In this document: piece by piece, positions 19,651-64,000 of the stretch
Layout of the letters: each line of letters begins with the position of its first letter
Position numbering within the stretch: position 1 is the first letter of the stretch
Program-made: the position numbers and the translations under genes
From: Bimuria novae-zelandiae CBS 107.79
Lineage: Eukaryota > Ascomycota > Dothideomycetes > Pleosporales > Didymosphaeriaceae
Reading direction: 5' to 3'
Length of the DNA: 64,000 bases
Assembly (NCBI GenBank): GCA_010015655.1
Contig: ML976670.1
Location: 881,397 to 945,396 of the forward strand
The notes under the pieces: generated by a model
Seen by the model: only the letters and a program-made list of their open reading frames with translations
What the model was told of the DNA's origin: nothing
Database searches by the model: none

Positions 19651-19659
19651 GTGATTAGT

Positions 19660-21260: not shown

Positions 21261-21266
21261 AGCCTT

Positions 21267-21440
21267 TATCACGAGTCGTAGGTCGAGGGCCCTCGACGGC
21301 CCTAGTCCGCTCTAGACCGGCGCTATCCGGGCCTTTCGCCTATCTACTTCCCTCGCCGCAGCCCTTCTCTTCCCTCTCTAAGGGATCGCCTTAGTACTGT
21401 GGATAGACTGAGTCGCCCGTAGTCAGGGCGCTTTTTTACA
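21267..21440 (+). repeat. right LTR of the Gypsy element, 174 bp
   Basis: Full-length match to 14254-14427. The leading TG is now TA, a RIP-type change. Followed by the AAAGC duplication at 21441-21445. Confidence 0.92.
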
Positions 21441-21445
21441 AAAGC

Positions 21446-22030: not shown

Positions 22031-22268
22031 GCAAATAAATCGCAGCTATCAAATTACTACCCTGCAAGAAAAATCTCGTGATAATATTGATCGTGGGTGG
22101 TGCTGTAGCCTTGTTTTCAATGGAGCGTTTTTGGTGTTGCCCGCGCATCACGCGCACGGACACGTTAGTGGGGCTGCTTGGGGTTTGGCGCGGGAGCTAT
22201 GAACCGTACGTACGTACCTACACTACCTGAGAACCACCAACACTCTACTCACCACGTCGTAAGTCGAA

Positions 22269-28632: not shown

Positions 28633-28782
28633 CATACATGGGCAAGTTGCCGGTAAGTTGCCCGGTATTCTGTATAACCGGTTGCCAAGCCCTTATCTCG
28701 TTAACCTGTTAAGAGAATCCTTATCTAGTATAATAGGTTATACTAATTATAGGCTTAGCATGCCAAGCAAAGAACTAAGAGG

Positions 28783-28792
28783 TATATAAAAG
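28783..28792 (+). promoter_or_regulatory. TATA-like box in the hAT 5-prime region
   Basis: TATATAAAAG about 150 bp inside the left TIR, upstream of the interrupted transposase. A likely promoter element by position only. Confidence 0.4.
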
Positions 28793-28837
28793 GATTTTTA
28801 TATTATTACCTACATATATACTACTATGACGCACACA

Positions 28838-28842
28838 CAATC
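28838..28842. repeat. target site duplication CAATC (left) of the first copia element
   Basis: Identical CAATC follows the right LTR at 35034-35038. Confidence 0.9.
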
Positions 28843-29095
28843 TGTCGGTTCACAGGTAGCAAGGAATAAACAAGTAACTCTCTGTCTTTGGTATCTGGTG
28901 TCTGTCTTGTCTTGTGTGTGTGCTATGATAGTTCTATATACCTTCCTTCCAGTTCTTATAGATGTGATAGAGTACCAGGTGGTGTAGAGGCGAAGGGGTT
29001 TCGGTACAGTATCAGGTTAACTAGAAGTGAGGGGGTACAGGGGTATGATAGGGATACACAGTTCCCTTAGTGCGGAAGGCGAGGCTGTGCAGACA
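28843..29095 (-). repeat. LTR of the first copia element, left copy, 253 bp
   Basis: Starts TGTCGGTTCACAG and ends GCTGTGCAGACA; the same length and ends as 34781-35033. It is the 3-prime LTR in element orientation. Confidence 0.93.
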
Positions 29096-29387
29096 CTAGC
29101 AGCTTTTCTTTTATAGTAAAAACAAGTGTGGATTAGGTGTACACTCGCTGGAGAGGCTGTTTGCGAAAGTTGGAAGGTAATAACTATAGTAGTTGTTATA
29201 ATTATTGTTATTAGAGCTAGTTTGCAGGGTCCTTACGTATTACCTATTTATTAACTTGTACGCGCAGCGAGTTTGTACTAATAAGAGTTTCTAGGGCTTT
29301 ATTTAACGATGTTTTTATTATAGCGTTGGCAGGGTTATCTTAGCTATTTACCTATTAAACCTTAAACAACTCCCTTCTCTCATATAA

Positions 29388-32300: not shown

Positions 32301-34700
32301 GTATTAGTAGGTAGCACGTGGAACGTGACTTTACCAATTACTATGTCGACGTGTAGGGTGCCTATAGATGTAATTGCCTGGCCTCTGCTAAAGCGGATTT
32401 GGTGCTACCTAGCTATTATGGTATCTATTTACAAGCTTATAGCTGCCTGTGGAGTAGTTGCTTATAGTTCTCCAGTTATTAAGACGCCTAAGGCTCCCGT
32501 GTTAGGCATAATACCCTAAAAGACTTTCTTATTATATTAATCCTTAAACGTAAATATAATAGCGGGCGTGTTATCTATAGCCCTAAACGCGTTAATTTGT
32601 ATAGTCGCGTGGTATATAGCTTAGTTGTTTAGGTAGGTAATTATCTAATTACTATTAATTATACTAGAGAACTTAGTGATAAACTAATCTCCCTTAGTTA
32701 TTATTTTAGTAGCGGGTATCTACTAAGTCTTGTTATTAATTTCGATACCTTTGTACTTAGTTAGGAAAGTGTAAAAGTTAGCGACGTTAGGTTGCGCGTC
32801 GTATAAGTAGGCTAACGCTATTTAATAAAATCTATTATAGGATTGCTTGCGCTCGTCCCTAGAGTGCTTTATTAACTAGTAGCTAAGCTTACTATAGATA
32901 AAGTATTTTTTCTAAGATTACTATTGCTCAGGTTATAGTGGCTATTAGAAAGGTAATCCTTAAGAGTTACCTTAATAGAGTCTATAATTATTAACGTCTT
33001 ACGGCGAGAAGCGCGACAAGAATCCTTATAATTTATTACCTTAACCTCTCTATAAGCCTTTACCTCCGTAAGTCCTATTAGTCTAATACTACTTATAGCC
33101 GTTTGCGTTAGGGTCGTCCTTATAAAAGTATTAGAGGTTATAGTAGTTCTAATACTCCTTATTAGTAGTATATTATATTAGGCTTAGATTACGCGCCTCG
33201 CGCGAGCGGGTAGCAGCGCTAATAAATAAGTATAGAGTAAAGTAGAGGCCTTTAAAAGTAGGCGCTAGGGCGAAAAGGGCAAGATTATAGTCCTTAATAC
33301 TACTATACGTATTAAGTAGTTATTCGCGTAGTACGTTATTACCTTAGTAGTTATAGCCTAACCCGCGTTAAAGCTTCTAGAGCTTATTAATAAGTAATTA
33401 AAGAGTATTAAGACAAGATTTATTAGGGTAGGCGCTAATTATACGTGCTAGCGTAGTTATTCTCTACTTACTAAAGTATAATTAATAATTCTCCTTATTA
33501 TAAAAGTGGCTTATTATTATACCTATTATTATCTTAAAATTATAGCCCTGACCCGCGAGGCAGTTATAGTAGTAGTTAGACGCTCTATCTTTTAGCATAA
33601 TAGAAAAAGCTCAATCCTAGTATTACTTAGGTAGCCCTATCTTGCTACAATTGTCTTAGAAGATTTTAAATTTAGTATTAAACATGTTATATAGCTTATC
33701 TCTAAAGCGCTTCTTATTATCGTATAGCTTGCAAAGGTCTGTAATAAGTTAATATATATTGTTAAGACGTGTGGCGTCTATAGGGCTTTCGTGCTACAGA
33801 TAGGGGTTATACGTATTATACTGGTTCAGCTACTGCGTAGAGGATAAAGGCGCGTTGTACTACTAATAAGGGGGCAGGTATGTGGTGGGCTACCGTTTTG
33901 GTAAAGGTATAAGTTAGTAGATAGTGCGTGCTATTAGAGCTAGTTAAGGAGAAGCAAGGTGCGCAAAGGGTTATTAAGAAGATTACTATAATAAAGGCGT
34001 ATTGTATAGAGGCGATATCGCAAGATTTAGATTAAAGCGCGAGTTAAACCTCTTATTTATTTTAAGCTAGTAAGTAACCTTTTTATTAGTCTATTTATAA
34101 TAGTCGCCCTGCAGCGCTTCTACGATATTATAGGTAATTAACTTACTATCCTTAGCTACAAAGACGCCTTGCTTGCGTAGGTGGTCTCAGAATTTAGTAA
34201 TAAGAGATTTATTACCTTTATTAAAGAGTTCTTTTAGCTATTTTTTAAAGATAATAGTTATCTGCTCCTATAGCTCATAGTCCTCCTATTCTTTATTTCG
34301 GGAGATTCAGTAGTAGAAGAGGATGTATATGGTTACACTTTTTATGTTAATTTTCGTAATATCTATATTCTTATTAATATTAAGGGGCTAGCCCTAGCTA
34401 TTCTTGTTAATAAGCGCCTGTTCTTCCTTCGTAAGATAGTTAGTGAAAGGCATCGTAGGAAAACAATTTAGGGGTCGTAAGGCGTCTCTTTAAGAGAGTA
34501 AGACGCAGGTTAATTAATAGTACTATTAGTAGCGGGTACTATAGAGCGTAATAGACAGGGACTTAGGTAAACGCTTAGAGTCCTTATTACTTAGTAGTAG
34601 GCTACGACGCGCGAGCTTCTGGCGAAGGCGTAATAGACGCGGAAACCTAGGTAAACGCTTAAGGTCTCGTTAGCACACGATTTAGGGTATCGCTATACCC
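29388..34700 (-). pseudogene. copia gag-pol polyprotein remnant
   Basis: Minus-strand reading. RNase H is clearest at 29388-29609, with LPLVVCTDSYSLYEC and VKLGTTKEKRLI. The end of reverse transcriptase near 30160-30320 shows AFGIVGMQTNDTLILADKRF. A protease-proximal block near 32230-32400 shows IGTLHVDIVIGKVTFHVLP. The rest is too RIP-damaged to place precisely. Non-functional because of many TAG codons. Confidence 0.8.
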
Positions 34701-34780
34701 CTTATCGTGTCTCTTCTAGTTCTCCTTACTGTCTGTGGTTATCTCTTATAGCATCGACTGTGAGGGTAACTACTAATTAG

Positions 34781-35033
34781 TGTCGGTTCACAGGTAGCAA
34801 GGAATAAACAAGTAACTCTTTGTCTTTAGTATCTAGTGTCTGTCTTGTCTTGTGTGTGTGCTATAATAGTTCTATATACCTTCCTTCTAGTTCTTGTGGA
34901 TATGATAGAGTACCAGGTGGTGTGAAGGCGAAGGGGTTTCGGTACAGTATCAGGTTAACTAGAAGTGAGGGGGTACAGGGGTATGATAGGGTTACACAGT
35001 TCCCTTAGTGCGGAAGGCGAGGCTGTGCAGACA
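34781..35033 (-). repeat. LTR of the first copia element, right copy, 253 bp
   Basis: Pairs with 28843-29095; differences are mainly G-to-A or C-to-T. The 5-prime LTR in element orientation. Confidence 0.93.
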
Positions 35034-35099
35034 CAATCGCACTAAATTTATTATAAATTTTTATATTTTTGTTTAGCGTATTATACTATTTGTTTATAT

Positions 35100-37830
35100 A
35101 CGCCTAGTGCGATGTATAGTATTAAAAAAAACTTATTAATAGAGTATTATTTAATACTAATTATTATTACTATGTTCTATAATACCTTATCTACTACCAG
35201 GCTAGGTAATTCCAAATTAGCATTATTAAATACACTACTATTAAACTTCTTCTCTATAATATATTAAAAGTATTTTAATACTTAAGGACTACTTCTTAAA
35301 GGCTATAAACAACGATCTAAGGGCACAGTCTTATATATTTATAATATATATAATAATTAAAGCTGTAGTTATCGCTACTAAGTTTAGGTTTATATTTAAA
35401 ATTATTACCCGCTAATAGATCTAGCATTAATACCTATAATATAGTCTTAGATTAGTAATACTTGTTCTTTAGTATTATTAATATTAGCACTACGAGATGC
35501 CTTTAATATATAAGCGTATAAAGAGGCTCTTATAGGTCTATTTACGCGTTAATGACTCCTATTATTAGCTATTAAAGATTTTTTAATTATATTTTAACGT
35601 ACTATAGTTTGCTTAATCGCATTAAACTTTAATTTATATATTAACTAACTTAGACATAGCTTATCTAGTACACCTTTTTAGATTTACATCTTATTAGATT
35701 TCTAGATATCACTACATTATTATACTTTACTTGCTATATATACTTAGTTAATAATAACTATAAGCTTCGCAAAGCTTTATTAGGACTACTAAAGTGCCAC
35801 TTTAATTACTTTAGAAAATATTAAGCTAGGCTTATTATTAAATTCCCTAAATAGTTTAGTATAGCGTTAAAAATTAACTACTATACTAGTAAAAATATTA
35901 TATTAAATAATACCTGCCTTAGTGCCCTAGCGTTATAGTTATAAGAAAAATATAATGTTAGTTTACATTGTTTTAGCCCATCTCTAACATCGTATATTAA
36001 CTATATATTAGGTAAAATTCGACCCTAATCTTTAGCGTATCCGATACATCGCTCATATTATAAATCTCTCTCTCCAGGCGTTCCTTCTCGCATCTCCAAG
36101 AGAGGCTCTTATCGCCGCCCTTGAGGCTGCATCTGGCGTCACCGGAGATAAGCTTCTCACTAAGTTTTCTGGTGTGCTGACTTCGTATCGTGAGAGTCAG
36201 AATGCCTCTCGAGGGCGATCAACAAAGCGGACAGGGAAGCAGAGATGGAATAGCCTAGGTACTACTACTACAACCTCTGAGGACTTTAGTGGTATATAGA
36301 ATATTCCTGCATTACGTAAACTACATGATCTATGTGTATGGCTCTGAGTGTCGACCATACATTCTGATCTCTAGGATGCGGAGGTAGGCGTCTAGCTTAG
36401 CGTCGGCAATACTACACAATAGTTATTATAGTATTATATTATTAATTAACTCCTTAAGAAGATTAACTAGATTAAGGCCTTTATAACAAATTATAAGGCT
36501 AGACTTAGTAATATCTAGCTCTTACTGTTACGAGCTTAAGGAACCTGGAGTGTGACACCACGACAACTAAAGGTGAATGGGGGGAGGTGGACGAGGTTGT
36601 GCTATAGCTAGCCTACGAGGGCTCGCGGGGCTGCTTAGGTTAGCCAGGATCACGTGACCCCGATCCGACAGTGGCTCAGGATCAAGGTGATCCGCTAAGA
36701 GGTTTAGATCACCTAGAGGCAGAGGAAGAAATAGACTAGTATATAGTATAATAATTCTTTTATTATTATTTCTCCTCTTTATAGTTAACTTATATATCTT
36801 CTACACGAGTACGTTCTTTATATAGACTAATAGTTATCTTATTTACTATAAGATTAGATTATATAGCCACGCGCTACGTTATTATATTAACTTATATTAT
36901 TAAATAATCTATAAAGTGTTACTTTAGCCTTGCCACCCTCACCCGGATCGGACCAAGGTGTGAGCGCCTTATAACACTTAGTATTAAATTAGGATCTGCT
37001 ACGTAAAGCGTATATATTTCTCTAACTATTTACTTCTACAACCTTTTATACGGAGGGCTTAATATTATTAATTACCTAGTTACTATTTATTATAGATCTG
37101 CTACTTCTACATTACGAGGAGTATAAAGTAGGTTAAGTTACTCTCTTACTTAGGGATCTAAATACTAACGTTTCGCAGGAATACTACTCTAAAGATAGAA
37201 ATAATTATAATAAACGCATGCTAAACACTTAATATAAGTTAATTTATTTTTAATAAATACTATAGAAAATCTAATAAAATACTAGCCTATGTTGTAACTT
37301 TCCTGCTTAATCTAGGTAAGCGAAATATCTATATTAAGCAGAACTAGCTTCTAAATTAGTATAAAAATAGTATTACTACTACTAATAATGTCTAGGAGGT
37401 AAAGTATAATATTAATTTTAGTAATAATTCTCCTACTATTTCTATACTAATAGGACCGCTACCAGGTAGGCTCGGTGTAGGGTTAATACAGTTAATAAAG
37501 GAACAAGAGGTTAAGTTAGTTATATCCTATTATAATATTAATAATTTTAAGACCTTTATTATATTATAGCTAATTAGCATTAACTATACGCCGCTAGAAT
37601 AGTGGTGTAGGCCAGATTAGAGGAAAAGCTACCCCTGACTTAGTTGTATAGCTATCACGATATTCTCTATCCTGGCGGAGTTATTAGAAGCTAAGAGAAT
37701 GTTCTCTAGCGTTTAGAGAACGTGCTTATGGGATAGATTAAGACTTAAATATACTACTATTAAGATAATTAAGTATATAGGTAATTAGCTACGTAAGGGT
37801 TTTAATAGCTAATTAGTAAGAATAAGTTAG
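35100..37830 (+). pseudogene. hAT transposase remnant
   Basis: Best preserved at about 36010-36380, which escaped most RIP and reads IRCIAHIINLSLQAFLLASP, with HIINL the usual hAT block. Near 37640-37760 the C-terminal dimerisation region is visible (SCIAITIFSILAEL, then KRMFSSV and WDRLRLKYTTIK). The N-terminal part (35.1-35.9 kb) is too degraded to show a BED finger. The reading is interrupted by the solo-LTR candidate at 36526-36976. Confidence 0.7.
36526..36976. repeat. solo LTR candidate, 451 bp, inside the hAT transposase
   Basis: Begins TGTTACGAGC and ends CTTATAACA (TG...CA). It is flanked by CTTAC on the left and CTTAG on the right, a four-of-five match. hAT-like reading occurs on both sides. 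It contains GC-rich, lightly RIP-affected patches at its two ends. No second copy is present in the window. Confidence 0.5.
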
Positions 37831-38131
37831 GTATGCTGATAGGTCCTGCGCTAGAAAGCTAATTTAAGAACCTAAATAATTAGGTTACTAATAAAATTAA
37901 GTAGATTTAAATAGACTATAATTATTAGAGACGTAATAGAGTGATATCGTATGTAACTTAACACTATAACTTTATGTAAAGCAGGGTAACATAGATTCTA
38001 TTATAATAAAAGTGCTAAGCCCTTATCCTGTTGCCAAGCCCGTATCTTGTTTGGTATTCTGTACGGCACTCTTAGCCTGTTCGGTATTCCGTACAGCTTC
38101 CTTAACCAATTATACGAGATGCCCATGTATG

Positions 38132-44134: not shown

Positions 44135-44136
44135 TA

Positions 44137-46263
44137 CCCTGCCGAGACAGTCAGTGCGCCGCGACACTAACGCGCCACCCTAACAGATGTAGCACCTCAA
44201 CTTTGACGCGCCGCATCTCCACCAATATGGATCCGATTGAGGCTGCAATCATCGCTATCGACTCACGAGAACCTGGAGAAACTTTCTTATATAGAAAAAT
44301 TGCAGAAGAATTTGGTGTTGTGCGGTCAACATTAACGCGCCGGCATAGACGCGCCATGCAAGCGCGTACACAGCTACTATAGACTCGCTAAAATCTTAAC
44401 TAATAACAAGAATCTAAGCTCCTATAGTATATATAGCGTCTTACTTAGAAAGGTCTACCCCCTACGCGTTAGATAATTTAAAACTTTATATTAATTATTA
44501 CTAAAAAGAATATGTCTATGCAATAGGTTTATCGCTTTATTAAATACTACCCTAACTCCCTAATCTCGCGATGGACGACTAGGCTAGATAGCAATTGCTA
44601 TAACGCTAATTTAGGCGCAAGATATAGGCTCTACTTTAAGCTTCTATATAAGAAAATTATAAAGTATGGCATAGAGCCTTAGCATACCTATAATATGGAC
44701 AAAAAAGGCTTCCTACTCAGCATCACCAGCAGGTCAAAAAGGATCTTCGACAGGCCTATATATGAGAGTCGCCAAGTAAGGCAATCTATCTAGGATGGCA
44801 GTCGTAAGTGGATCTCGCTCATCGCATGTATATGCGCCAATAAATCTACTATTAATCTATCACTAATCTATTAATCTAACGCTAAGACTCTACAATTAAG
44901 CTAGGTTAAGGAAATTAACGTTAATTCTTATAGAGTCTTTATTACCTTATTAACCTCTAGATAGTTAAACAACAAGATAGGGCTTTAATAGCTAAAACAG
45001 GTGTTTAATCGCTATACTAAAGAGAAGGCTTAACGGCAATAGCGACTCTTAGTCCTTAATAGGCATAGATCTCACGTTACTATAGATTTTATTAACTACT
45101 ATAATTAGAAAAAGATCCTCCTTGCGATATTTCCCCCTTACGCCACTTATACGCTATAGCCTCTAGACGTCTATGTGTTTAAGTCTCTTTCTACTACCTA
45201 CTCCGACGAGCTCTCCGCATACCTATATAAGAGTTAGGGGCTATTAACAATCGCTAAAAGAGACTTCTTTACACTATTCTAGAGGGCCTAAATAATGTTA
45301 GTTACGCCGTAATTAATTGCTAAAGCTTTTAAATATATAGGTATCTCGCCGCTAGATCCTACACTAATCCTTAGTTAATTTAATAGAAATAAGTCTCTAG
45401 AATAAAGATTACGTAAAAGCTCTACTTTAGTACTTAGCGCGTTTAATTAGCGCAAAATTAATTAGCTTTTAAAGGTTGTTATTAATACAGGGGGAGGTAA
45501 TAAGGCCAAAAAGCTAAGTCGCACTATACACTTAATTTCTATATAGAAGTAGCTCCTAGAGCATAAGAATTAGGGGCTATAAGAAGCCCTCATAAACCAG
45601 AAACAGCGTTAAATAAAGGGCAGGACTCTACCTTTTAAGTAGCTAGATAAGTAGCATAAAAGATCTATTTTCTAGTTACCTGCCCGCATATAGAGGGCGC
45701 GCAATTCTCTTAGCCAATAAAAGGCTAAAAAGTAATAACTACAACTCTAGAAAAGTAAGCAGAGAGAGATCTAGATAGTAAATAGGCAGCTTAAAGCTTG
45801 TCTACTATAAAAAAAGCGTGTTACGCGTGCGGTAGCTAGAAATACGCGCGCTAAGAAAAAAGCTAATTAAGCTACTAAGTAATGCCTCTGTTAATAGGCT
45901 CGCAAGACTTAATAATAACATTAAAAACGTCTTAAAATTGCCAAAAAGGGAAGCTAGAATGCTTTAAAAGCTACTTATATAATTATAAAGAGGAAGAAGC
46001 CTACGCCGGCATCTATACGCGTTAATATAGTAATATTTACGCTATTAGCGCTAGCATCGCGTAGTGGCTAAATAATTAGAACACTAAGTAGATATCTATA
46101 ATTTAACTAGCTAGTAATCTTCTATAGCTCTATAAAATCTTAACTCTAGAAAATTTCGCGATAAAAGCTTTTGTGTAAAACTCTACAACCTTATATTGCT
46201 GGCTACGGTACTGGTGTTAGGGTGGCGCGTTAGTGTCGCGGCGCACTAACTGTCTCGGCAGGG
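44137..46263 (+). mobile_element. pogo/Fot1-like transposon 1 of 5 (plus strand), 2,127 bp
   Basis: 48-bp TIRs (44137-44184 and 46216-46263) beginning CCCTGCCGAGACAG and near identical. TA at 44135-44136 and 46264-46265. The transposase starts at ATG 44227 (MDPIEAAIIAIDSREP) and runs on the plus strand. The first 230 bp are unmutated and the rest is RIP-degraded, with readable blocks LVLNRHRSHVTIDFINYYN near 45049-45105 and DVYVFKS after it. Confidence 0.93.
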
Positions 46264-46265
46264 TA

Positions 46266-48400
46266 CTGTGTCTGTGCACCGAACGCCCGGAGTCACTAAA
46301 CGCCCGCTCCAGCACCTTCACACCCACTACAGACATGAGGCTATAGAGCCACATACAATAGCTATTATTATAAGAACTTTTAATAGTTTATTCTATAGCT
46401 TTATGCGATTATTTTAATACCTACTATATCCTCTTTAGTCTAATTTTGCGGCCGCGGCTGCTCTTTTTAAGCTTAAGAGTTAGGGAACGCTCACGAATAA
46501 TAGGTTAACTATAAGTAGCTATAGCACTACGTTTCTACTTCTTTTTAGGTGCTATAGCTTATAAGGCCTTACGTTTACCTTTTTAAAATAATTATAGCGC
46601 TTTTCTAGCGTCGCGTTCTTCTTTTTTACGCTTTCTTTTAGTCTTGCGTTTCTTTATACCTGCGCGCTTCTTTGCGTTAACCTGGTCTTGCTCTACCTTC
46701 TCCCTTGCCTGCTTCTTACGCTTCTCTTTTATAATCTTCTCCTTATATATCTTATTAGCATAAGCTAACTCCTTTATCTTAGCCTTTTCTAGTTCCTTAT
46801 CTTGCCTCTCTTATTTTATAATAGCTGCGCGAGCGCGCGCCTCTTAAAAGGCTCTAAGTAATTATATTATTACTCTACTATAATACTTCTAATATTATTA
46901 TAGATCTAATTGCCTGCTAGCCTGCTTCTTACGCTTCTTATTCTGGTATAGCTTCTTACGTAAGCTATTATTTTCGCTGTAAAGGAGCTTAATTTAGGTT
47001 AAGAGGTAGTAGATAGTTTAACCTAGCTTCCGCGCACCTATACTACGCGGATCCTTCGCCTCTGCACGTAGTGTACTATAAGCTTTAAGCTAATCTTTTG
47101 CAGAATAAGCTGTAGAAGTAGAGGAATCTAATTCTAAGTCCTTAGGAGTTATATAGCGGAACCTATTAAGTATAATATTAGGGTTTACTAGGGATATGCT
47201 AGTAGCTAAGAAGGACTTCTTTATAAGCTTTTCTTTAAATATATTAACCCAGGCAGGCCAGAATAGGTTGAAGAAGTCACCTTTTAATAGTAGGGATAGG
47301 CCTTAAGACTTCTAGAGATAGTCGTTAAGTTTGCTACTATAGTTAGAAGAGAGAGGCTTAAAGCAGATAATATCTAATAGTTATAAAGTCTAGGTACTAT
47401 AAGGAGGTAACACTACTAGTATAATCTAATTCTTATAATAGTATTTAAGGAATTCTTGCGTTAGGTGACTACTATAACTATCTATAATTAAGAGGCAGTA
47501 CTCTAACCTAGCCTTTAGCTTAGTATAATAGTTAAACACCTGCTCTAACCAGGCTAGCCCGATGTTATTATTTGTCCATCTAGAAGGTGAAGAAGCCACA
47601 TGGATAGCGTGTTTTTCGGCCTTAATATCCGCCACCCAGTGACTCTAGATAGTAGAGTTTTTTAACGTAAAGATGATGCCAGGGGGAAGAGTAGTACTAT
47701 TCGCGCAGATTGCGGCCAGAAGGCTTACCTACTTACGTAAGCCATCTTAATAAGCCTGCCTAACCTCCTTCTTCTTATATTAACGCCTACTAAAGATGCG
47801 TTTTAACCTGCCTAGTACCCTAATCGCAAAGCCCTTCTTATCCATATTATATATATTCTCCTCTTTAATATTATATTCTATAATTTTTTATTATAACAAG
47901 TTAAAGTATAGCCTATACTTATATACTAATTTAGCGTTATAACGATTAGAGTCTATGCCTATAGTCTATTAAGAGGTAAGCTAATTATCGTAATAGTAGA
48001 GGAAGCGCGTAACCTAGCTCTTAGAAACGCATCCTTGCATAACTATAGATGCAAAATTCTATATTATGCTCCTTATAGGTAGCAAGTAACGCGTAGTTAG
48101 CTTTTTAATATATTTAACTAGGTTATCTTCTTACTAGTCGTTAAGTTTATAGTTATTAAAGATATTAATATATTAGGGGACCTGCACGCCTCGGTGCGCG
48201 CGCGACAACGTTATATAAGAAATACTATAATTTTCTATAATATAAGTATATATAGGTTTCTTTTCTAGCTTTAGTGTATTAATTGCTATAAGCGCATTAC
48301 TTAATCCTGGTATAGTGTTAAGTTATTACGCGTTAAAATATAGTGCAAATATTGCGTGGCGAGCGTTTGGTGACTCCGGGCGTTCGGTGCACAGATATAG
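46266..48400 (-). mobile_element. pogo/Fot1-like transposon 2 of 5 (minus strand), 2,135 bp
   Basis: TIRs start CTGTGTCTGTGCACCG on the left and, RIP-changed, CTATATCTGTGCACCG on the right (reverse complement). TA at 46264-46265 is shared with element 1, TA at 48401-48402 with element 3. Minus-strand transposase remnant: SRWTNNNIGLAWLEQVF and CLLIIDSYSSHLTQEF at 47426-47600. Confidence 0.92.
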
Positions 48401-48402
48401 TA

Positions 48403-50507
48403 TAGTGACCGTGTACGCCGTGCACACCTTCGGGCTGTGCACGCCTTAGCGACCTGCTGCACATCTTAAAAATGAGGCTATAGAGCTACGTATAATAGCT
48501 ATTATCGCGAGAATTTTTATTATAATAGTCTACTAAGTTCTATAGTGCTTACCCTACTCTTATTTCTTATTTAGCTTTATTTTGCGGCCGCTGCGCGTGG
48601 TAACTAGTAGAAGTGCTAATAATAGCAACGCCTTAATAATAACGCAAGTAGCACTACGCGCACGCTATTTTTTAGCTATAGGCTTTATAAAAGGCTTACT
48701 TAAGGCCTTACGCTTACCTATTTTAGGTATTTATATAGATTTAGTAGCGTCGCGCTCTTATTTCTTTCGTTACTTCTTAGCGTTATTAGTAGCCTTTTTC
48801 CTTGCTTTCTCTTCCCTTACCCTCTCTTATTTTACACGCCTTTACTACTTATCCTGCTTATCTTAAAGCTTCTTCTAGGCTTTTAGCTCCTTTTAATAAG
48901 CTTTATCTACCTTCTCTTATAAATTTTATTCCTTATTAGCCTTATAGCGCTCCTCAGCTTAGCAGATCTTATAAGGGGACTAAAGAATAGCTATACTATA
49001 AAACTCCTTATAATGCTGCAGGTTAAGCCTCCTCTACTTATTTTTAGAGGGCTTAAGCTCTTTAATTACGTTGCGTAGGCCTTCGTTTTCAAGCTATACA
49101 AGCTGTGTATGGGTAGAGAGATAGGAGATAGTACGCCTTAACTGCTACACCTCTTCTGCGTCCTGATTCTCTACTACCTAGGCCAGTATTTGGATAGCTT
49201 GCTTCTAGTTATCTGCTATAATTAGTAAAGGTGTACGAGGCAGCCGCCTGCGCTTATTCTAAAATCTATTAATAATTATAGCTACGTTTAGTGGCGATAG
49301 GCCCGTGACTTTAAAGGCCTTAAGGATAAGGCTTAGGGTGAAGGTTCTTATCTAAGACTTATAGAATAGGCGGAAGAAGTCGCGCTTCTTTACACCTACT
49401 AGGCCTTAAGTACTGTAAAGGTGTTTAGTGAGCTGGTTTGTGTAGCTTATACCTAGAGGTAAGAAGAGTGCTATATCGAGCGGCTGCAGCGTGTGGGTAC
49501 TGTGAGGAGGGAACACTAGTAGTAGTATCCTATTCCTATTGTAGTACTTGATGAAGGACTAGGTTATATGCGAGTCGTAGCTATCTACTATAAGTAGTCG
49601 CTAACTTCTGCGTGCCTTCTCTTAAGTGTAGCGATTAAAGACCTGTTCTAGCCACGTAAGGCTAACCTCGTTGTTTGTCTAGCCTAAGGGCGTTATAGTA
49701 ATAAATACTAAGTGCTTTTCTGCGTCTATATCCTCCACCCAGGACGATTGTATCTCGTTGGGAGCGCCTAGATAGATAACGCCTAGAGGTAGTGTCGAAC
49801 CATTAGCGTAGACGCTTGCGAGTATCGACACCTACTGCCTATTACTATCTTGCATAGGCTGGCGCCTTGTTTTTAACTCTATAGAAGCCCTACTAAACAC
49901 TTGTTTAGTGCGCCTATTAAGTACTCCGATCGCGAAGCCCTTCTTATCTATATTATATATATGCCGTGGCTTAATTAAGTATTCGGTGATCTTGGAGTGC
50001 ATAAGCTTAAAGTATTATATGTACTTCTCGCTGCTATTAGCGTGGAGGCGCTGCGCATTAATAGCGTTGGCCTATTTGTATAGGAGCTGGTCGCGGTGAC
50101 GGTTAAGGAAGTGAGTAACCCACGAGTCGGAGACCCTCTTTGCAGCCAATTTAGAAGCTATATTTTATACTATCTATCTTATAGGAGGTAGGCCTCGCTT
50201 AGTAAGCTTAATTATAAACTTATAAAGCTCTTGCTCTTATGTAGGGTGGAGTTTAAGTAGTTATTAATTAGCGTTAGCACGCGACGCGACAACGCGTTAG
50301 TAATATTATAATAAAGTTATATAGTATATATTATGTTTTTTTATAATTACCTAGTATAAAAGTTTACCTTTTATATCTACTATATCTGCCTCTTTAAGCG
50401 CTTCTTCTAACGGCATTGTGGTGTTGAGTTATATAGTTGAGGAGTATAGTAGATTTTTGGTAAGGGTGTGCACGGCCCGAAGGTGTGCACGGCGTGCACG
50501 GTTACTA
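48403..50507 (-). mobile_element. pogo/Fot1-like transposon 3 of 5 (minus strand), 2,105 bp
   Basis: TIRs start TAGTRACCGTG at both ends and share CGCCGTGCACACCTTCGGGC. TA at 48401-48402 and 50508-50509. Minus-strand transposase remnant with a THTLQPLDIALFLPLG block near 49460-49510 and KAFKVTGLSPLNVA near 49280-49325. Confidence 0.9.
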
Positions 50508-50509
50508 TA

Positions 50510-52629
50510 CCGTGCCCGACGGGCTCGTGCACCGCGCGGGCTCGTGCACTAACACTAACATGCTTACTACTATAAAGATGAGGTTATTATAAGCGCTATA
50601 AAAGCAATTATCGCGAGATTTTTTATTGTAATTACTCTGTAGAGGCGTATAAATAAGTTATACTATCTAAGTTTTCGCGAAAGAGTAATTGCGCGACCGC
50701 GAGAGCTGACTTTAGGTAGAGGTGCTGGTGCAGCTTCTGGGGACGACGGATGAGCTATAGCACCGCCCTTGGCTCGTTTTAGCTTGCGCTTTGCTAGAGG
50801 TGCTTTTAAAGCTTTGCGCTTGCCTCTTTAGATAATTGTAGAGGCCTGCCTAGTGTTTTGAGCAGCTTTTCTGGCATCCCGGGCAGCCACCTGTTTGGCC
50901 TTTATCTGATCTCGCACCTCCTTGGCTCTTTCTCTCGCCACACGACGCTCCTCCTTCTCTTGCTCCTTAAGGAGCTTGGCAGTAGCTTAAAGCTCCTTTC
51001 TGTTTAACTTTGCTAGTCTCTCCTGCTCCTCTTAGTGTTGCTTTTCTGCCTCACGCTCACGTGCTCGCTCGAACTTAGAGGGCGACTAGAAAGTAGCACT
51101 ACTATAGTACTCCTCTTCGCGCTGCAAATTAAGAGGCTTGCTAGCGTTTTTACGCTACTTCTTAGTAGTAAGAGCATCCCTTAGGCCGCTGTTCTTATAG
51201 TGTAGTAGCTCGTTTTAAACCTAAAGTTAGTGTAGCGTTTGGGAGAGCTTCTGCGAGGTCTCCGCCGAGGTATCCTTCACTATAGCACGTATAAGACGCT
51301 CCATCTGCCTCCAGTCCTTAGGCAAAAGGGCTAAGAGCCGTGCCTTACTCTTATTGTTGTCCTATTTGCGAAAACGCTTAAGTACGACGTCAGCCTTTAT
51401 AGGGGCTATACTAGTGGCTTTAAACGCCTTAAGGACGAGTTTTATTATAAACGTAAACTCTTAAGCACTCTAGAATAGCGGGAAGAAGTCTTCCTTCTAG
51501 ATAACTAGTAACCCCTACGTTTTAAAAAGGTAATTAGTAAGCTTAGCGAAGTAGTTGCTGCTAAGAGGTTTAAAGCAAACTATATTAAGAGGCTATAGTA
51601 TATAGGTTAAGTAAGGGGGAAACACGGCTAGTAGTATTTTATAAGCCTCGCAGTATTTAATAAAGTCTATTAAGAGGTAGCTACTATAGCTATTAAGTAT
51701 AAGGAGGCGCTAAGCTTAGCTAAGGCGTGCTTTTTACTTTATTTCGCGGTCAAAAACCTGCTCTAACCAGGCCAATCTAATATCATTATTTATCTATCCT
51801 ATTAGTAAGGAGCTTATAAACACACTATACTTTCCTGCTTTAATTTAAGCTACCTATGAGGCTTAAAGTGTGTAGTTAGCTAACGAGTATATAAAGGCTA
51901 GCGATAAAACACTCCTATCTACTTTAATAGTTGCTATAACTATTACCTACTTTTAAGAGCTATCTTAAAGCGCTGTTTAGACCTTCTTTTCCTCTTATTA
52001 AAGCTAACTAAACACCCGTTTTAAGCGTCCTATAATACTAATTATAAAGCCCTTTTTATTTATATTGTAGGTATTACAAGGCTCTACCTCATACTAAACG
52101 ATCTTATAATACAGGAGGTTAAAGTACAACTTATACTTACGTCGTAAGTTAGCCTAGTAGCGTACAACGTCCATGCCAGCGCTCTATTTAGAGATAAGAT
52201 AGTCGTGGTTATAGTTAATAAAACGCGAAACCCAGCCCTCTCTAACATACTTTTTTAATATATTAGACGCGAAATTTTGTATTATAGCTCTCGTAGGAGG
52301 TAGCCCACGAGCCGTAAGCCCTCTAATATACTCTACAAGTCCCTCCTCTTATTATAGGCTGAGTAGTTATTACGCGGCGTACCTAACTGCCTAAGGGCCT
52401 GTCTAGTAGTTCCACCTTCGGCTAAGTGTTAAATGCGATACACCATATTTTTTCGCGATACCCTAGATGCTAAAATTATTGCTAGCTTTACGCAATTCTA
52501 AATCTATAATTACCTTATTAATTAGTACTATAGTAGTGTAGTTATCGCGTGTTAAAAAAGTTAAGATAGACGCGTTGTTTGGTAGGGTGGTGCACGAGCC
52601 CGCGCGGTGCACGAGCCCGTCGGGCACGG
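50510..52629 (-). mobile_element. pogo/Fot1-like transposon 4 of 5 (minus strand), 2,120 bp
   Basis: TIRs start CCGTGCCCGACGGGC; each contains two copies of GGGCTCGTGCAC. TA at 50508-50509 and 52630-52631. The minus-strand transposase tail near 50690-51060 is hardly RIP-affected and reads as a Lys/Arg/Ala/Glu-rich coiled coil (KEQEKEERRVARERAKEV) ending GRAITLSRKLR; upstream parts are degraded. Confidence 0.92.
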
Positions 52630-52631
52630 TA

Positions 52632-54757
52632 CTGTGCCTCGGCAGTCAGTGCAACACGTTAGTCAATGCAACACCCCAACAAGATCGCTCGGCCAGCAAC
52701 ATGAAGCTGCTGAGCCACCCACAATCAATATTATCACGAGATTTTCTGGATTTAGGGTCTCTAAGGCCTGTAGATAATTGCTAGCTACTTAGATTATTAA
52801 TATCTACTTAGTATTCTAATGATTCGGCCTTTGCGCGACTGTAAGGCGGATGCAACAAATAAGGCCTTATTAATATCTATAGCCTTACGCTAAGGCTGTT
52901 TTTTCTTAGTAGGCTTATTAAGAGGCTTTAAAGCCTTCTTATTTACTAATTTAGATATTTTAATCTATTTTTAAAGTTAACTTTATGCCTTGCGGGCCTA
53001 TTACTTAAGGCGTTGCTTTATAGCCTTATTAGCCCTCTACTTTGCGCGTGCATCTCTAGTAACTACTTAAGTAATACGCTTCTTCTAAAGTAGCCTTATT
53101 TTAAGCTACTAGCTAGCCTGACGTGCCTCTACTTACTTACGTTTTTAAAGCTATAGTTGCTACGCTTTAGTATCTTTTTTGTGTAGACAATTACGTGCCC
53201 GCTAAACGCGATAGGGTAATATAAAAATAGATCCCCCTTAATCCTTATAAGGCTAATTAAAAGATAGAGGCCTGCCTCGCTTTAAGCGTTTCTTTTAGAT
53301 AGTTAGGGCCTTCCGTAGGCCCTAATTTTTATGCTCTGCAAGCTGTGCTCGTGCAGAGATTAAGTGTATAGTTTAACTTAGCTTTTTAGCCACATTACTA
53401 GCCCCTACATTAATATAAGCTTTTAGAAGCCTATCGATTTTCCTCCAATCTAATACGCTAAGTACTAAGATTAAGCTTTCTTATAATTCTTACTTCGGTA
53501 CGTAATTATTATTAAACCGCTTAAGGATAACTTCTAGATATAGAGGTGATAGGCTAGTAGCCTTAAAGGCCCGGAGTATTAATAGCTGCCTTATAGTACT
53601 AACCTAGACCTTCTAGAATAAGCTAAAGAAGTCCCTTTTAGTAATAGAGGCTATTTCTAGGCTATCTTGTAAGAAGGCTGATAGCTCGTTTAAATATGCT
53701 ATTAATAGAGGCTTGAACATGCAGACATCTAGAGGCTGCAGTATATAGGTCGAATATAGTAGATAGATAGCTAACAGGATCTTATTACGATCGCAAAAGT
53801 TGATAAAATCCATAGTAACGTAAGATCTATGGCCATCGAGGATTAATAGTCGATATAATCGTCTAGCTTTTAACTTTATAAGGCGATTAAACACCTGTTA
53901 AAGCTATGCAAGGCCTATCTAATTATTTATCTAGCCAAATTCTAATATAGTAATAAAGACTTAATAATATTAAGGGTTGAGGTCCTCTATCCAACTTGAT
54001 TGTATATCTGTAGAGGTGGCCTGATAGATTAGAGCTGGATCTAGGGCAGATCCGTCGGCGCATATGCAAGCGATGATCGATATCCATTCACGGCTACCAT
54101 CCTAAATAGCTTGCCTTACTGCCTTGCTCTCGTACAGAGGTCTATCAAAGATCCTCTTTAAGCGGGAGGTGATGCCGAGCAGGCAGCCTTTTTCGTCCAT
54201 ATTGTATATATGCTGAGTCTCGATCTGATACTGGCCAATCTTTTGCTGTAGAAGCTGAAAGTAGTCCTTATATTTGCCTAGGGAATTAGCTTTATGGCGA
54301 TTGCTGTCGATGCCGGTCGTCTATCGTGATATTAAGGATTCAGGGTGGCGCCTCACAAAGCGATTAACCCATAATAAGCTAACCTCCTTTTTGGCTATAG
54401 TAGAGGCAAAGCTTTGTATCATTTGCCGTGTAGGAGGAAGGCCACGTTTAGTAAGGCCTCTAATATATCGTAGGAGCTCTAATTCTTGCTGTGGGCTAAG
54501 ATTTCGACGTGTAGAGTCGGTATCTGCACGCGCCTGCGTGACGCCTTAGTGCTAGCGCGTTAATGTAGAAAGTACAATACTATATTCTTTTGCAATTTTT
54601 CTATATAAAAAAGATGCTCCTGGCTCTTGCGATTTGATTGCTGTAATTACTGCCTTGATTGGATCCATATTGGTGGGGATGCGGCGCGTGAAAGTTGGTA
54701 CGTTGCATGGTGGGGTGTTGCATTGACTGACGTGTTGCACTGACTGCCGAGGCACGG
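52632..54757 (-). mobile_element. pogo/Fot1-like transposon 5 of 5 (minus strand), 2,126 bp
   Basis: TIRs start CYGTGCCTCGGCAGTCAG at both ends. TA at 52630-52631 and 54758-54759. The best preserved transposase of the set: MDPIKAVITAIKSQEP start at 54669 (minus), IYNMDEKGCLLGITSRLKRI near 54170-54230, LLILDGHRSYVTMDF near 53820-53865 and a YILQPLDVCMFKP block near 53710-53750. Still interrupted by several TAG codons. Confidence 0.93.
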
Positions 54758-54759
54758 TA

Positions 54760-57829: not shown

Positions 57830-60800
57830 CTCTTAATTAGTAATCTTGTTTAATATATCTTTAAGTCCTAGCTTATTTAGAAACTTGCTCTATTTATTTA
57901 CTAGCAAGGCCTTTATAAGTCTATCTATAACTATGTCCTCTAAGCGTTAATAGTCTACCTTAATTTTTCTAAGTGTGACTTCTTGTCTTAGCTAGTAATT
58001 ATAAATATCTATATAGTAGAGCTTGGTCTGCAGCTTTGCAATCTCTTTAGTAACTAGGCAAATAGTTTATTAATTATCGCAGTTAATTATAATTAGGTAA
58101 TTGCTTATAGCGATCTAGAGCTCCTAGAGTAATCGTAAAGTGAAGATGGCCTCCTTAGCCACTTATAAAAGCGCTAGAAGTTCGGCCTTTATTATTAATG
58201 TAGTGACTGTATCTTACTTGCTTACTTTCCAGGCAATTAGGCCGCTAAATAGCTTAATAATGTATCCTTATAAACTCTTACGATTAAGTGTATTATTTAT
58301 AAAGGATACGTCGCTTGCTACTTCTAGAGTATCTACACCCCTAAGCTAAAGACCTAATAATTTAGTATTAGCAAGATAGAGAAGAACTTAGTTAGTAGCC
58401 ACTTAATGCTTTTTGCTTAGGTTAGATAAGAATCGTAATAATCTAGAGCTTGCAAAGGCGATATCTAGTTAAGTTGTAACTATAGTATAGAGAATTAATC
58501 CGACTTTGCGCTAGTATTAATTAATTTCACCCTTATTAGCTAGTCCTGTTCTTAGGAGTAATTTAATTAAACCTATTAGGGTATTATGGCGAATCTTATG
58601 GTGATCGATAAAGCGCGATATTTTGTCGATGTATAATGCTTGTAAAAGCCAGATCTTTCTATTTAAGCGGTTCCTAATAATTTCAATTCCTAGAAACTAT
58701 TACAGGTCTTTCCCGCTAGTAAGGGTAAATTTAGTTCTTATCTTTTTAATAGCTACTTTTGCTGCAGGCTCGTGATTCTTCTAATAGGCGATAATAAGAT
58801 CATCTATATAAAAGAAGATAATAATGCCATCCTTAATAAGGCAGCATAGCTCGTGGGGCACTATTTCAAAGCTAATATCACGGAGCGTTAATGTAAACTC
58901 TCTTTACTAGAGCAGTGGAGATATGCGCAGTCTATATAGTGCTTTATGTAGTTTAAGGACTGTGCCTGCTCGCGAGTATCCGCGGGGCATTCTTATGTAG
59001 ATTTCTCTATCTAGCTTTGCGTGAACAAACGCGTTCGTAACGTTATATTAGATAAGCTCTAGGTTAAACCAAGCTATAATTACTATAAGCATGTAAAAGG
59101 ATTGTCCTATAAGTATTACGGCGTAGGTTTCTTATAAGGTTAGGTGCCGCTATTAATTGCCCCGCACCACTAGCCTTGCCTTACACTTTTATAGTTAATA
59201 GTGTTTATTAAACTTATAGATGTATACCTACATGTAGTTAAGGATTTAATGGCCTACTACCTTCACTAAAGCTACTGCGACCTCGCTCTAAGACTTTATT
59301 TCCTTATGGCTCTATAGATGGGAACGTTCTGCTTCCTTCCACATATTATAAAGAGGGTGATCTTCGAGCTTGCTTCGGCATGTAGGTGGCTCTAGAAGCA
59401 CGCTTTAATGTGGCTTCTTACCTAATATAATTATTTATTAAAGCTATGCCTTATCGAGAATCTTGCCTTCGTATTTACTATTACTACTAGCTTTAGTACT
59501 TACTATAAAGGCTGCGGCCTATGCACTTGTTTGTAACTACCCTGTTTATAACTTTTAGGGTAGTCTAGCTTAATCGCCTCTTGCTATTAGTTATGCAAGG
59601 AGTGTTACTAGTAGCGGTGTTAATAAAGGCGTTAGATATTCGTACCTAGCTCTCTTGCCTTAATTATACTTAGGAGCGCTTTTAACCTCTTCCTCTAGCG
59701 CTTTACTAATTATCTTATCCTTAAAGAAGGACTTGGTAGCTTGCTCTTATTAAGGTAAAGAAGGTAGCTCTACTAATCGCACTTAGACTACTATTTCTTC
59801 TAATGTGTTATGCATAAGGTTGTCTACCAGGTCTTTAGTTTTACCTAAGAATATAGTATCCTCGTCGAAAATTACATCGCGAGTACTAATTATCTTTGCT
59901 AGAGAGGGAATCTATATTTTCTAGATGTTAGTTAATTTGTAGCTAACTAAATAACCTATTCATGCTTTAGGATCTAGTCGCTGGAGCTTACTCTTACCAC
60001 GTTTAGTATTATTAGTTATGGCAAAGGTCTTACAGCTATAAGCTTTTAAGTAAGCTTAATTAGGCTTCTTTGGTTAGGTGACAATGCCGTTCTAAAAGGC
60101 TACTATTATAAAGAACACTTTATATAGAGATTGCTATTAATTAGCGTAGGTTGGCGTTTAATTATATAGGTAGACTGCGGCTCGGGTAATCTTAGGCCAT
60201 ATTTGCTAAGATAGGTTAGAGTTAAGTTGCATCGCGCGCGCTTTCTCCTTAATTACACCCCCTAAGCGTTTAGCTCCTTTATTTTATGCTTAAGTATCTA
60301 GTGCTAAAGGCTTGATCTTAATACCTTGCGCTAAGCACTACTTCTTAATATTTACCTTAATAGAGAAGATCTCGTTATTGGATTTAATTACTTTCACTAT
60401 AATGTTATATTATACTTTTATAAACTATATAAAGGTGCTAAGTAATTTAATAATTAAGCGTGCTAGGCGGTTATCCTTAAAGTAGTAGTCCCATGCGAAG
60501 CTAGAGAATTGGTTAGTAATTAGTATTTAGCTCTTCTCTCTTATTAAGCTATCTACTTCGTAGTCGTGAAAGTCTATTGCGACTTGCTCGCCAGGGCCTT
60601 TAGTTCGCTCCCTAGCTTGCCAGCGTATTTGCCATTTTAGTTTTGCTTTACCGCAGGCGTTACATTTAACTATAAGGAGGCCTTTAATCCTTATTCCCTT
60701 AGATTACTGCACGAGGTGTTCGAGGGCCTAAGGGCCTAGATAGCCTAATTATTAGTGCTAGGTCTACGCGTCTGCCTTCTGCGGTCTTTGTTTAGTGCGT

Positions 60801-62500
60801 GTGTTAGTCTTATAAGTGGCGTGCGTAGCATTAGTAGGAATACTACCTACTAGTCTTGTTCTATATTCTAGCACCTACTATCCGTGTAACTCTTAAAGTT
60901 CTGCTAGCATAGTATTGTCTCTTCTTTTTAGAGTTATTAGATCTGCCCTTATGTCCCACTAAAGGCCTTGCCTCTAAAGTAATTAAAACGATATAAGGTT
61001 GCAGAGTAAATTAAGGCAATAGGCGATATTATCTAGCCGTATTATTTAATTGCTACTTGCACTCTATACGTTAAGATAGATAGTTCTATATCCTTAGATC
61101 TATATTTGTGTATTCCTTGCCCATATAAAGTCTCCTGACGCCGGTGGCCGGTATAAGACAAAGCAATTAATGTTATTAAAGATATAGCAGGTTATGCCTA
61201 AATCAAGTATAGCTAAGCATCGCAATAGGTACGTGTTTAATTCGTTATAGAAGGATGCGGCTTAGAAGCTTACTAAGATTTTAGTAATTTTACGTCTGTC
61301 TAGTCACTTATTATTAGCCTTAGTAATTCGAGTTAGAGTGGGAGTATGTAATAATTTAATTCTAGGTGTTTAAGACTTTAGTCTTTTTACCTTCCTAATC
61401 TCATCTTGTAGATGTGAATTATTTTAGATTCTGTATTGTACCATATCTGCAAAGCCAGGTCGTGGCCTAAACCACTCTAGTGCATGATCTAGATATGCGT
61501 AGAAGCAGTCTTTTAGACTATGCCTTTATTTATAAGTAGGGCATTTTTTGCCTTTAACTACTATTATATCCTTTATTAAAGACTACTTGGATATAGTGCT
61601 TTAACTAAAGAATCGTTTTTGTCGAGGTCTCCCCCGTCTACATTAGTTATTCGTGGAAGATGGCGCGTCTTTAATAGCGTAAGAGGCGTCCCTATTAGTG
61701 CCCAGGGTGGATGCACCACCAGCAGCGAGAGATAGCTTACTAGTAGTAAAGGCGCCCCTATGCTGTTTGCCCTTAATCAGGTGGAGTATTACTATATATT
61801 CTTAGAAGCGTTTTATTATTTCCTTCCTTATTATATCTGCGTCTCGGCGTCTAGTTTCTTAAAAGGACATACCCTAAGTAGGAGCAGCCTTTATAATCGC
61901 AGTTAGGAAGTCCTTTATAGTATTATAGATTAATTATACTTCGGCGATATTATTCGTCTCTGCTTCTATAGCTACCTAATTATACTCAGTTAGCTAGGTA
62001 TCCTAGTTTAAGGGTTGTCTTATTAGCTTAAGGGCCTGTAGGTATCGTGCTCTTGCTCTATCCTGCTTGTCTTCTTTATTAACGCCTACGGTCTGTGTTA
62101 GAGACGTAATCTATTACTAGATTTACTCTCTAGGCTTGCAGCAGTTGCGTTGCAAGTGTGGCAACATAGTAGATTAGATATAGATAACCACTTTCTTAAG
62201 ACTTAATCTCTCCTTGTGGTATTCCTTGTCCTTTATCTTGTAGTCTTTAAGCTGTATCTTATAGAACTTAATATCCTCCTTATATGCCTTAAGTCCTAAG
62301 TTTGATAGCTCTAATAGGCGTGTTAGAGGGTTCTGTTAATTGTCGTCGTTTACGCGGATAATCGGTTGGTAACTCGCTATTTCTAGCGGCGATAGCGGTG
62401 TCGGCCTTTTACGTAGGAGTTTGGCTCTATCTAGGTTAATAATAGGCTATATATCTATTAGTTCGCATCGCGCTTTTAGCTACAGCAGCTATAGTGTGTA
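57830..62500 (-). pseudogene. second copia polyprotein remnant
   Basis: Minus-strand reading. RNase H near 57900-58250 shows LFSGLIAWKASK, DTVTTLIIKAELLALL and VTKEIAKLQTKLYYIDIYNY. Reverse transcriptase near 58590-59230 shows the catalytic FFYIDDLIIAY (about 58783-58815) and EIYIRMPRGYSRAGTVLKLH. Integrase and gag parts to the right are heavily degraded. Non-functional. Confidence 0.8.
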
Positions 62501-62596
62501 GTTAGTGTAATTAGTTAACATAATTATTGAGTCGCGGAGTATTAACAGCGACATTATCCTTTCTTAAGGTTTAGTTAAGGCAGTAAGACTCTTAAT

Positions 62597-62820
62597 TATT
62601 AGATTTAATAGTGTTCTGTTACTTTGAGATAATGCAATAATAAGAATTAATAGTTGTGATAATTTATTAATGATGTTCGTGTTCTGTCTATGTCTGGAAT
62701 GCAGATGTGTGCGAGGCTCCAAATAAGTGCCGCTATAGCGCTAGCCCTATTTAGAATAGTACAAAAGAGAGAGTGCTCCAGCCTCATATCCACAATAGAT
62801 AGAGGTCATATAATCGGACA
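62597..62820 (-). repeat. LTR of the second copia element, right copy, 224 bp
   Basis: Same length as 57498-57721; begins TATTAGATTTAATAG, a RIP-changed version of the left end, and ends CGGACA. Followed by ACTAT. Confidence 0.92.
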
Positions 62821-62825
62821 ACTAT

Positions 62826-63030
62826 TATATTACTTATTCTAGGGTAACACGCTAGCTACAATATCTAGTCCTTATAATCTACTTTTATTTTAACGCAAGT
62901 GGATACCTTTTAAGTAAAGCTAAAAGTTAGCTATTATATTACTTATTTAAAAATAACATATAGTTATATGAAGTATAGGGTTTATTATTATATTACTTAT
63001 TTTTAGAGTAATACGTATTAAAACCCTAAG
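62826..63030. repeat. tandem array of about 163-bp units, right part
   Basis: Completes unit 2 and contains most of unit 3 (start at about 62902). Unit 3 keeps the same word order but with CG and CA positions turned to TA, for example CTTATTTAAAAATAACATA in place of the motif core. Confidence 0.75.
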
Positions 63031-63349
63031 GGGAAGTTAGTCCTACAGGATTAAAGGTTAGCTCTTAGGTAGGAGTACTATAAGGTACGAAAGAGGTATT
63101 AACGGATTAAGCTTATTATTAGGACATTAGTATTAAAATTATAAGATATTAAATTAATAGAAGCCTAAGTTAAATTTAAATAATAGATTAAGAAATAGGT
63201 TGAATATAAAAATAAAAGTCTAACTTCGAGTTCTTATATACTTAAGGTAATTACTAAGCTAACTCTTATAATTAAGCTAATTAAGTATATTATAATAATT
63301 ACCTTACTTAGCGTGTTTATTAGTCTTAGACTACTAATTATTCTAATTC
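63031..63349. other. AT-rich, RIP-degraded DNA of unknown origin
   Basis: No domain can be read on either strand. Dinucleotide content is as in the other RIP blocks. Confidence 0.4.
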
Positions 63350-64000
63350 TGTTGGTAGGCCTTTGTACGATCGTACGGGTGATAATAGTAACGAATGTCT
63401 TGTATATTGCTATTGGTATATTCTATCTATGAACGTGGGTGCTACGAAGGTATACATGGGCTCGGTGCGAGTCGGACCGAAGTAGGATCAAGGCGGTACG
63501 TTAGGCAGCATCAAGCAGCCTCAGGCGATAGGATATATGTATACTAACACTAGCAACCTTTTATTATCATAGCACACTATTCCGTAGGTCGCTGCACAGA
63601 TCCCTCTACTTGTATTAATAGCATATTGCTATTAATAAATTATTTAAGTGCGCGATTTGGCGTGGCTTTCGTGAGTGCGTCCGCAGGGTTATCTTTACTA
63701 TTAATCTATTAGATCTCCGCGATCTCATGGCGCTCGTACGACTGGCGGAGTACCATAATGTCGATTATTAGGCGCTTCTCATTCGTGGTGCCAAGTTTAA
63801 CGAGGCACTTATACAGTAAGTATGAGTCTGTATATACAACGAGTGGGATTAATAGTAGACCTAGGCGTTCTGTAATTATCTTAAGTGTTGTTAAGATAGC
63901 AATAGCGATGTCGACGCCGCTAACTATACTATATGTCTCTAATACTAGGACGCTTCTAGTGACGCGTTTACATTTAGTTAAACTCTAATAGATTACGTTA
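63350..64000 (-). mobile_element. third copia element, partial (runs off the window)
   Basis: A probable LTR at 63350-63549 (TGTTGG...CTAACA) is followed on the right by a minus-strand copia RNase H with VKLGTTNEKRLIIDIMVLRQ, SYERHEI and KDNPADALTKATPNRALK at about 63640-63830. This is the same RNase H type as the first copia. The second LTR lies outside the window, so the LTR call is unconfirmed. Confidence 0.7.

Follow-up and report, generated by a model that had tools for sequence, protein, structure and literature searches.

Terminal inverted repeats of resident transposons as probable preferred targets of pogo-like and mariner-like elements in a fungal genome

How do five different transposons come to lie end to end, each sharing a single TA with its neighbour? 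The question is raised by a 64,000-nucleotide stretch of the Bimuria novae-zelandiae CBS 107.79 genome (C15:881397-945396; hereafter the window), where an array of pogo-like elements occupies positions 44135-54759. We combined a re-reading of the array with genome-wide searches for the ends of its elements and with controls from the same flanks. TAs at and within terminal inverted repeats (TIRs) were found filled by unlike elements far more often than chance allows.

An array of five pogo-like elements

The original prediction described five pogo-like elements of 2,105-2,135 bp, one on the plus and four on the minus strand, with exactly one TA per junction. Re-reading of the sequence agreed on every point. 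E1 (44137-46263, plus strand, 2127 bp, TIR CCCTGCCGAGACAG) has a TA on both sides and a TIR pair matching over 49 bp at 98%. The remaining four lie on the minus strand, each with a TIR pair: E2 (46266-48400, 2135 bp), E3 (48403-50507, 2105 bp; pair 89% identical over 47 bp), E4 (50510-52629, 2120 bp; pair 100% identical over 40 bp, with a complete relative at locus L110) and E5 (52632-54757, 2126 bp), the least mutated of the five. Across E1-E5, the two TIRs of a pair are 89-100% identical over about 37-49 bp. The TAs common to neighbours stand at 46264-46265 (E1 and E2), 48401-48402 (E2 and E3), 50508-50509 (E3 and E4) and 52630-52631 (E4 and E5), with no further base between the elements, while the outer TAs lie at 44135-44136 and 54758-54759. 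No recognised TIR was found in the flank to the left of 44135-44136.

Strands were set by DNA alignments, open pieces and Pfam matches. A Pfam scan of open pieces from E1, E2, E3, E5 and the OL element detected both HTH_Tnp_Tc5 (54324-54545) and DDE_1 (53616-53897) in E5, and DDE_1 in E2 (47429-47644) and in the OL element; the E1 pieces and the one E3 piece scanned gave no match, and E1 aligns with E5 at the DNA level. The array thus displays TA target duplication, TIRs and the HTH_Tnp_Tc5 and DDE_1 domains of Fot1/pogo-like elements of the Tc1/mariner group; an intact catalytic transposase is absent from the five window copies. Because no open piece in any of them exceeds 106 codons, these copies look dead, which does not alter their family assignment. 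All five carry RIP-like mutation (TpA/ApT 1.38-2.2), which explains why some terminal bases differ from those of related copies; E3 begins with TAGTG in the window and with CAGTG or CAGTA elsewhere.

Several other features were recorded in the window. At 12886-22170, an LTR-type element of about 7.2 kb interrupts a pogo-like element with TIR ACGTGTCCGTGCGCG; the two LTRs (near 14257-14424 and 21270-21438) are 98% alike. Two more TA-rich, RIP-like islands (28000-38000 and 58000-64000) gave no match to our small element library. A gene for a CENP-T histone-fold protein, 97% identical to a Bimuria novae-zelandiae CBS 107.79 protein, lies at 9864-11525, and Rfam produced no match within the window at the gathering threshold.

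Neighbours of element ends across the genome

The genome (77.4 Mb, 191 contigs) contains 235 exact E1 TIR ends. A search with the E1-E2 junction returned 40 scored matches, and in all eight loci examined, the window's own and seven others, E1 was joined via one TA to another pogo-type end. Such a query favours junctions, and we therefore turned to sets of ends chosen regardless of their flanks. In set A, comprising the first 67 of the 235 exact E1 ends in genome order (C1 to C17), a pogo-type TIR lay across one TA at 13 ends; sequence scoring established 12 of these, while the one at C9:1212253 was assigned from its coordinates and the pattern match. A mariner-like TIR occupied the same position at 3 of the 67, and at three further ends the neighbour began at a TA 2, 2 and 6 bp on. 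Set B consisted of the 30 best-scoring E1 left ends, seven of which also belong to set A (one of these seven abutting); here pogo-type TIRs abutted 5 of 30.

For a further family, F, we collected every end with no more than two mismatches, 33 in total. Pogo-type TIRs abutted ten of them, counting locus L137, where an E2-like TIR was seen by eye (the script threshold gave nine), and mariner-like TIRs abutted three. Two of these three have identical flanks on C110 and C176 and are probably one event; the flanks concerned lie at C110:235792-235966 (L140) and C176:7132-7306 (L141), and their identity reflects segmental duplication or redundant assembly. Additional F ends are separated from a TIR start by 2, 4 and 30 bp, and a further one is located within an E1 TIR. 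As no recognised TIR begins within 6 bp of 48 of the 67 E1 ends and 18 of the 33 F ends, targeting is strong, not obligatory.

Chains other than that of the window were also found: E1 carries neighbours on both sides on C52 and C61, an E1-F-K chain lies on C12, and on C9 E1 is followed by two further elements and then an E1-like end. We searched 15 neighbour stretches for the far TIR of the abutting element. It was found, with its TA, in L099, L102, L104, L110 and L113, and, only in a looser search, in L111. Transposase-like DNA with no far TIR within the stretch was present in L101, L103, L105, L106, L109 and L112; L107 and L108 yielded neither in the stretch, apart from a short E2-like segment in L108. 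Given this outcome, the neighbour in L068 is classed solely by the look of its TIR. The remaining stretch, L100 (C3:611700-614175), holds a different TE of 1,790 bp with TIR AGCTAGCGCATATAGTG inside the repeat that abuts E1, and TIR-like sequence similar to AGCTAGCGCATATAGTG occurs near E1 in L071 and L146. Separately, one repeat, AGGTTTTGCCAAGATTTTCCCC, begins directly at, or 4 bp away from, two E1 ends (L036/L143 on C13, L070 on C3); this repeat was left out of the TIR counts.

Other TAs of the same flanks served as controls. In the 1.5-kb flanks of set B, a library TIR stood at 5 of 30 flanking TAs versus none of 3140 TAs beyond 150 bp (Fisher test, 5e-11). TAs 61-150 bp away had a TIR in 0/204 cases for set A and 0/160 for F, with one weak match among 199 for set B; a weak "end" match at 93 bp in L024 was discounted as spurious. 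At 11-60 bp the signal was weak (1/174 in set A, 1/75 in set B, 4/103 in F), the single match of set A being an internal repeat of one TIR and probably spurious, and one of the four in F a duplicate flank. Within 1-10 bp, TIR starts were found at 3/35, 1/12 and 2/19 TAs for set A, set B and F, respectively. TIRs abutting E1 and F supplied part of the scoring library, and these figures may therefore miss some distant TIRs that belong to other families.

A pattern-only test is free of this bias. With 235 E1 ends, 477 canonical ends and an assumed 3-7 million TAs, chance predicts 0.008-0.019 junctions genome-wide between E1 and a canonical end, and the same number between two canonical ends; 13 and 5 were observed, respectively. 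In all five canonical-canonical cases the joined TIRs differ at 1-3 of the 12 outer bases. Comparison with a TA-based expectation, as had been proposed, places such junctions far above chance. The remaining "solo" flanks (69 E1 and 19 F ends, which still include ends abutted by mariner-like elements) showed no TIR-like consensus. A simple sequence motif as target was accordingly rejected, and the preference is for TIRs as such.

TAs within TIRs and the choice of partner

The left TIR of E1 contains a TA of its own at E1 position 32-33 (44168-44169 in the window). Elsewhere in the genome, at least 18 E1 TIRs are interrupted at the equivalent TA, a lower bound as the search pattern excludes inserts beginning with A, and in all 18 a TE end falls exactly there. 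Eight inserts are pogo-type (c2 in five, and S, U and F) and ten mariner-like; two of the 18, on C33, are the two ends of a single insert. Both breakpoints and the duplicated TA were read on C15 and C20 for the left TIR and on C12, C23 and C2 for the right. In these nested inserts the E1 sequence resumes at the correct base after the insert. Because both TIRs of E1 were struck and the inserts are unlike, several of the events are independent. A hand count among the first 100 of the 235 exact E1 ends gave an insert at a TIR TA in 4 of 12 lengthened copies, although a mutated E1 copy has about 300 TAs.

Similar cases involve other elements. In L192, a mariner-like end cuts the end of E3 at the TA just inside, and in L147 E1 occupies a TA inside a mariner-like TIR. 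The partner elements m1-m6 are putatively mariner-like, judged by the look of their TIRs; inverted ends with TA were seen in their C33 and C2 copies. Neighbours 2-6 bp away, together with the 18 cut internal TAs, indicate that the hot target is the neighbourhood of the TIR, not one TA, and specificity for the single flanking TA was rejected. The original prediction of guidance to the flanking TAs of related elements therefore agrees with the statistics and with the many junctions to different partners, but proved too narrow, since the internal TA of E1, TAs 2-6 bp outside and mariner-like elements are also involved.

Some of the loci inspected have a more complex structure. In L203 (C33:556080-559670), the two sides of a mariner-like element of ~3.4 kb each bear precisely the 33 outermost bp of the E1 TIR, in inverted orientation and followed outwards by TA; perhaps two mariner copies within one E1 recombined, or this is a chimeric mobile unit. 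Two c2-type elements in E1 TIRs (L195 and L200, on C12 and C55) have a different interior right behind the TIR, are 91.7% alike over 2.1 kb and are possibly longer or cargo-bearing c2 variants.

Partners are unevenly represented. E1 is the partner in five of the ten pogo-type junctions of F, in joins that involve either end of each element, and c2 fills four flanking and five internal E1 TAs. No E1-E1 junction was found in a genome search allowing up to 3 mismatches in 28. The nearest to a self junction is E1 joined by one TA to a close TIR variant, CCGTGCCGAGACA, at C15:70439 and C47:329504. By our own arithmetic from the canonical counts only about three E1-E1 junctions are expected, so their absence is weak evidence, and the loss of long palindromes may be an additional cause.

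Explanations and known systems

We propose that the TIRs of TA-specific elements already in place, as a rule unlike the newcomer, probably attract new copies, which then insert at a TA close by. Targeting of TIRs as such is well supported by the exact junctions, the enrichment over TAs of the same flanks, the internal TIR TAs filled with duplication, and the diversity of partners and orientations. The TIRs of residents (about 40-50 bp) and the bases close to them would then be hot spots, roughly thousand-fold above ordinary TAs, for incoming copies of other families, both pogo/Fot1-like and mariner-like. A newcomer would mostly take the TA duplicated by the resident, sometimes one a few bases outside and sometimes one inside the TIR. 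Insertion at the flanking TA would create a TIR-TA-TIR junction and expose a fresh TIR, allowing a chain of the E1-E2-E3-E4-E5 type to grow stepwise. The window array may have arisen in this way; insertion order is known for nested cases only.

As to the cause, it is quite possible that a transposase sitting on the resident TIR acts as a tether: an enzyme of the resident or a related element, with its Tc5/CENP-B-type DNA-binding domain, would recruit the newcomer. That insertions occupy TAs at 0, 2, 4 and 6 bp as well as within the TIR suggests that a newcomer is first recruited to the TIR and then takes a TA nearby. The partner bias favours recognition by a protein, as does, weakly, the lack of E1-E1 junctions. 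Alternatively, though somewhat less plausibly, the hot spots could be intrinsic to TIR DNA or chromatin, with GC-rich, repeat-bearing and perhaps nucleosome-poor or easily bent ends exposing TAs to any TA-specific transposase. This fits the filling of both internal and flanking E1 TAs by pogo-type and mariner-like elements alike, the latter presumably relying on another kind of transposase. It sits less easily with the bias of F towards E1 and of c2 towards E1 TAs, with E1 self junctions limited to the two with a close variant, and with insertion at TAs 2-6 bp beyond the TIR, where the flanking DNA is arbitrary, none of which is decisive. We give slightly more weight to the tether. An extension of the tether, in which pogo-type transposases home to transposase-occupied TIRs of other families and avoid their own, is speculative and rather unlikely; it draws on the missing E1-E1 junctions and on the base differences between the TIRs joined in the five canonical-canonical cases. 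If true, TIRs would serve as landing pads across families, with a kind of target immunity, and chains of unlike elements would be the outcome.

The array, or pairs within it, might instead be a composite or segmentally duplicated unit that was moved or copied whole, as the original prediction had also envisaged. We consider this very unlikely. Some pairs are indeed met again with unchanged orientation (E1R-E2L on C15 and C116, E3R-E4L on C15 and C64, E5R-E4R on C107, C32 and C4), and an F flank on C110 has an identical counterpart on C176. However, on C116 E1-E2 is followed by Z (2108 bp, both TIRs) where E3 stands in the window, and orientations vary both for E1-F and for E4-E5, which is joined as E4R-E5L in the window and as E5L-E4L on C3. 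Outer flanks differ as well: on C107 another pogo end lies four bases from the TA of E5, whereas no recognised TIR was found in the outer flanks of C32 and C3 or on the E4 side of C4. The outer TIRs of recurring pairs are unlike, and searches with the E1-E2, E3-E4 and E4-E5 junctions recovered only pairs, the whole 10.6-kb block not being seen elsewhere. Composite movement of the block was thus rejected.

Random insertion at TAs wherever element-rich regions tolerate it, the abutting cases being those that survived, is highly improbable: elements do cluster in TA-rich islands, but TAs of the same flanks are hardly used, neither beyond 150 bp in set B nor at 61-150 bp in any set. An assembly artefact joining repeats is equally hard to credit, for although N stretches occur in the assembly (in L043 and in a part of L156), as does at least one duplicated flank, two unlike TIRs meeting exactly across one TA share little sequence for misjoining, and nested E1 copies resume at the correct base with the TA duplicated.

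TIR-directed insertion would have several consequences. A natural genome would display an about thousand-fold target preference for the ends of other elements, which explains end-to-end arrays and would steer insertions into elements already present and not into genes. The genome also offers a countable system for target choice by cut-and-paste transposases, including avoidance of their own ends. The common view of Tc1/mariner and pogo elements is that nearly any TA can serve them as an insertion site.

In bacteria, the TIRs of Tn21-family transposons reportedly serve as targets for IS4321 and IS5075 of the IS1111 family (Partridge and Hall, 2003), so that a mobile element takes the TIR of another as its target; enrichment of insertions at the TIRs of other elements was likewise found here. 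These insertion sequences employ a different enzyme, the transposase pieces found here being DDE_1 and not an IS1111-type recombinase, and in the present case the incoming elements are cut-and-paste TA elements from more than one family, inserting at TIRs of more than one kind. IS30, which inserts next to its own inverted repeats, also exploits element ends as targets; it uses its own, whereas partners here are mostly of unlike families. MITE multimers, said to have been described in maize and rice by Jiang and Wessler in 2001, resemble the array in that small, target-specific elements lie in or beside each other.

Fungal Fot1/pogo-type elements of the Tc1/mariner group, as described in PMC3441728, resemble those of the array in length (~2.1 kb), TIRs, TA duplication and HTH_Tnp_Tc5 and DDE_1 pieces; that description mentions no preference for the TIRs of other elements. 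In the literature searched, with its partial coverage, we found no account of pogo elements targeting TIRs across families. Nested plant LTR retrotransposons are comparable in their non-random insertion into residents, at preferred positions within other elements, but they are retrotransposons and prefer the 3'UTR and not the ends (PMC6911290). KolobokP likewise comprises DNA transposons joined into multimers, with abutted TIRs discussed as a possible target; unlike the array, it is TTAA-specific and has a homing nuclease, and its multimers consist of copies of a single element, with long direct repeats (PMC9587614).
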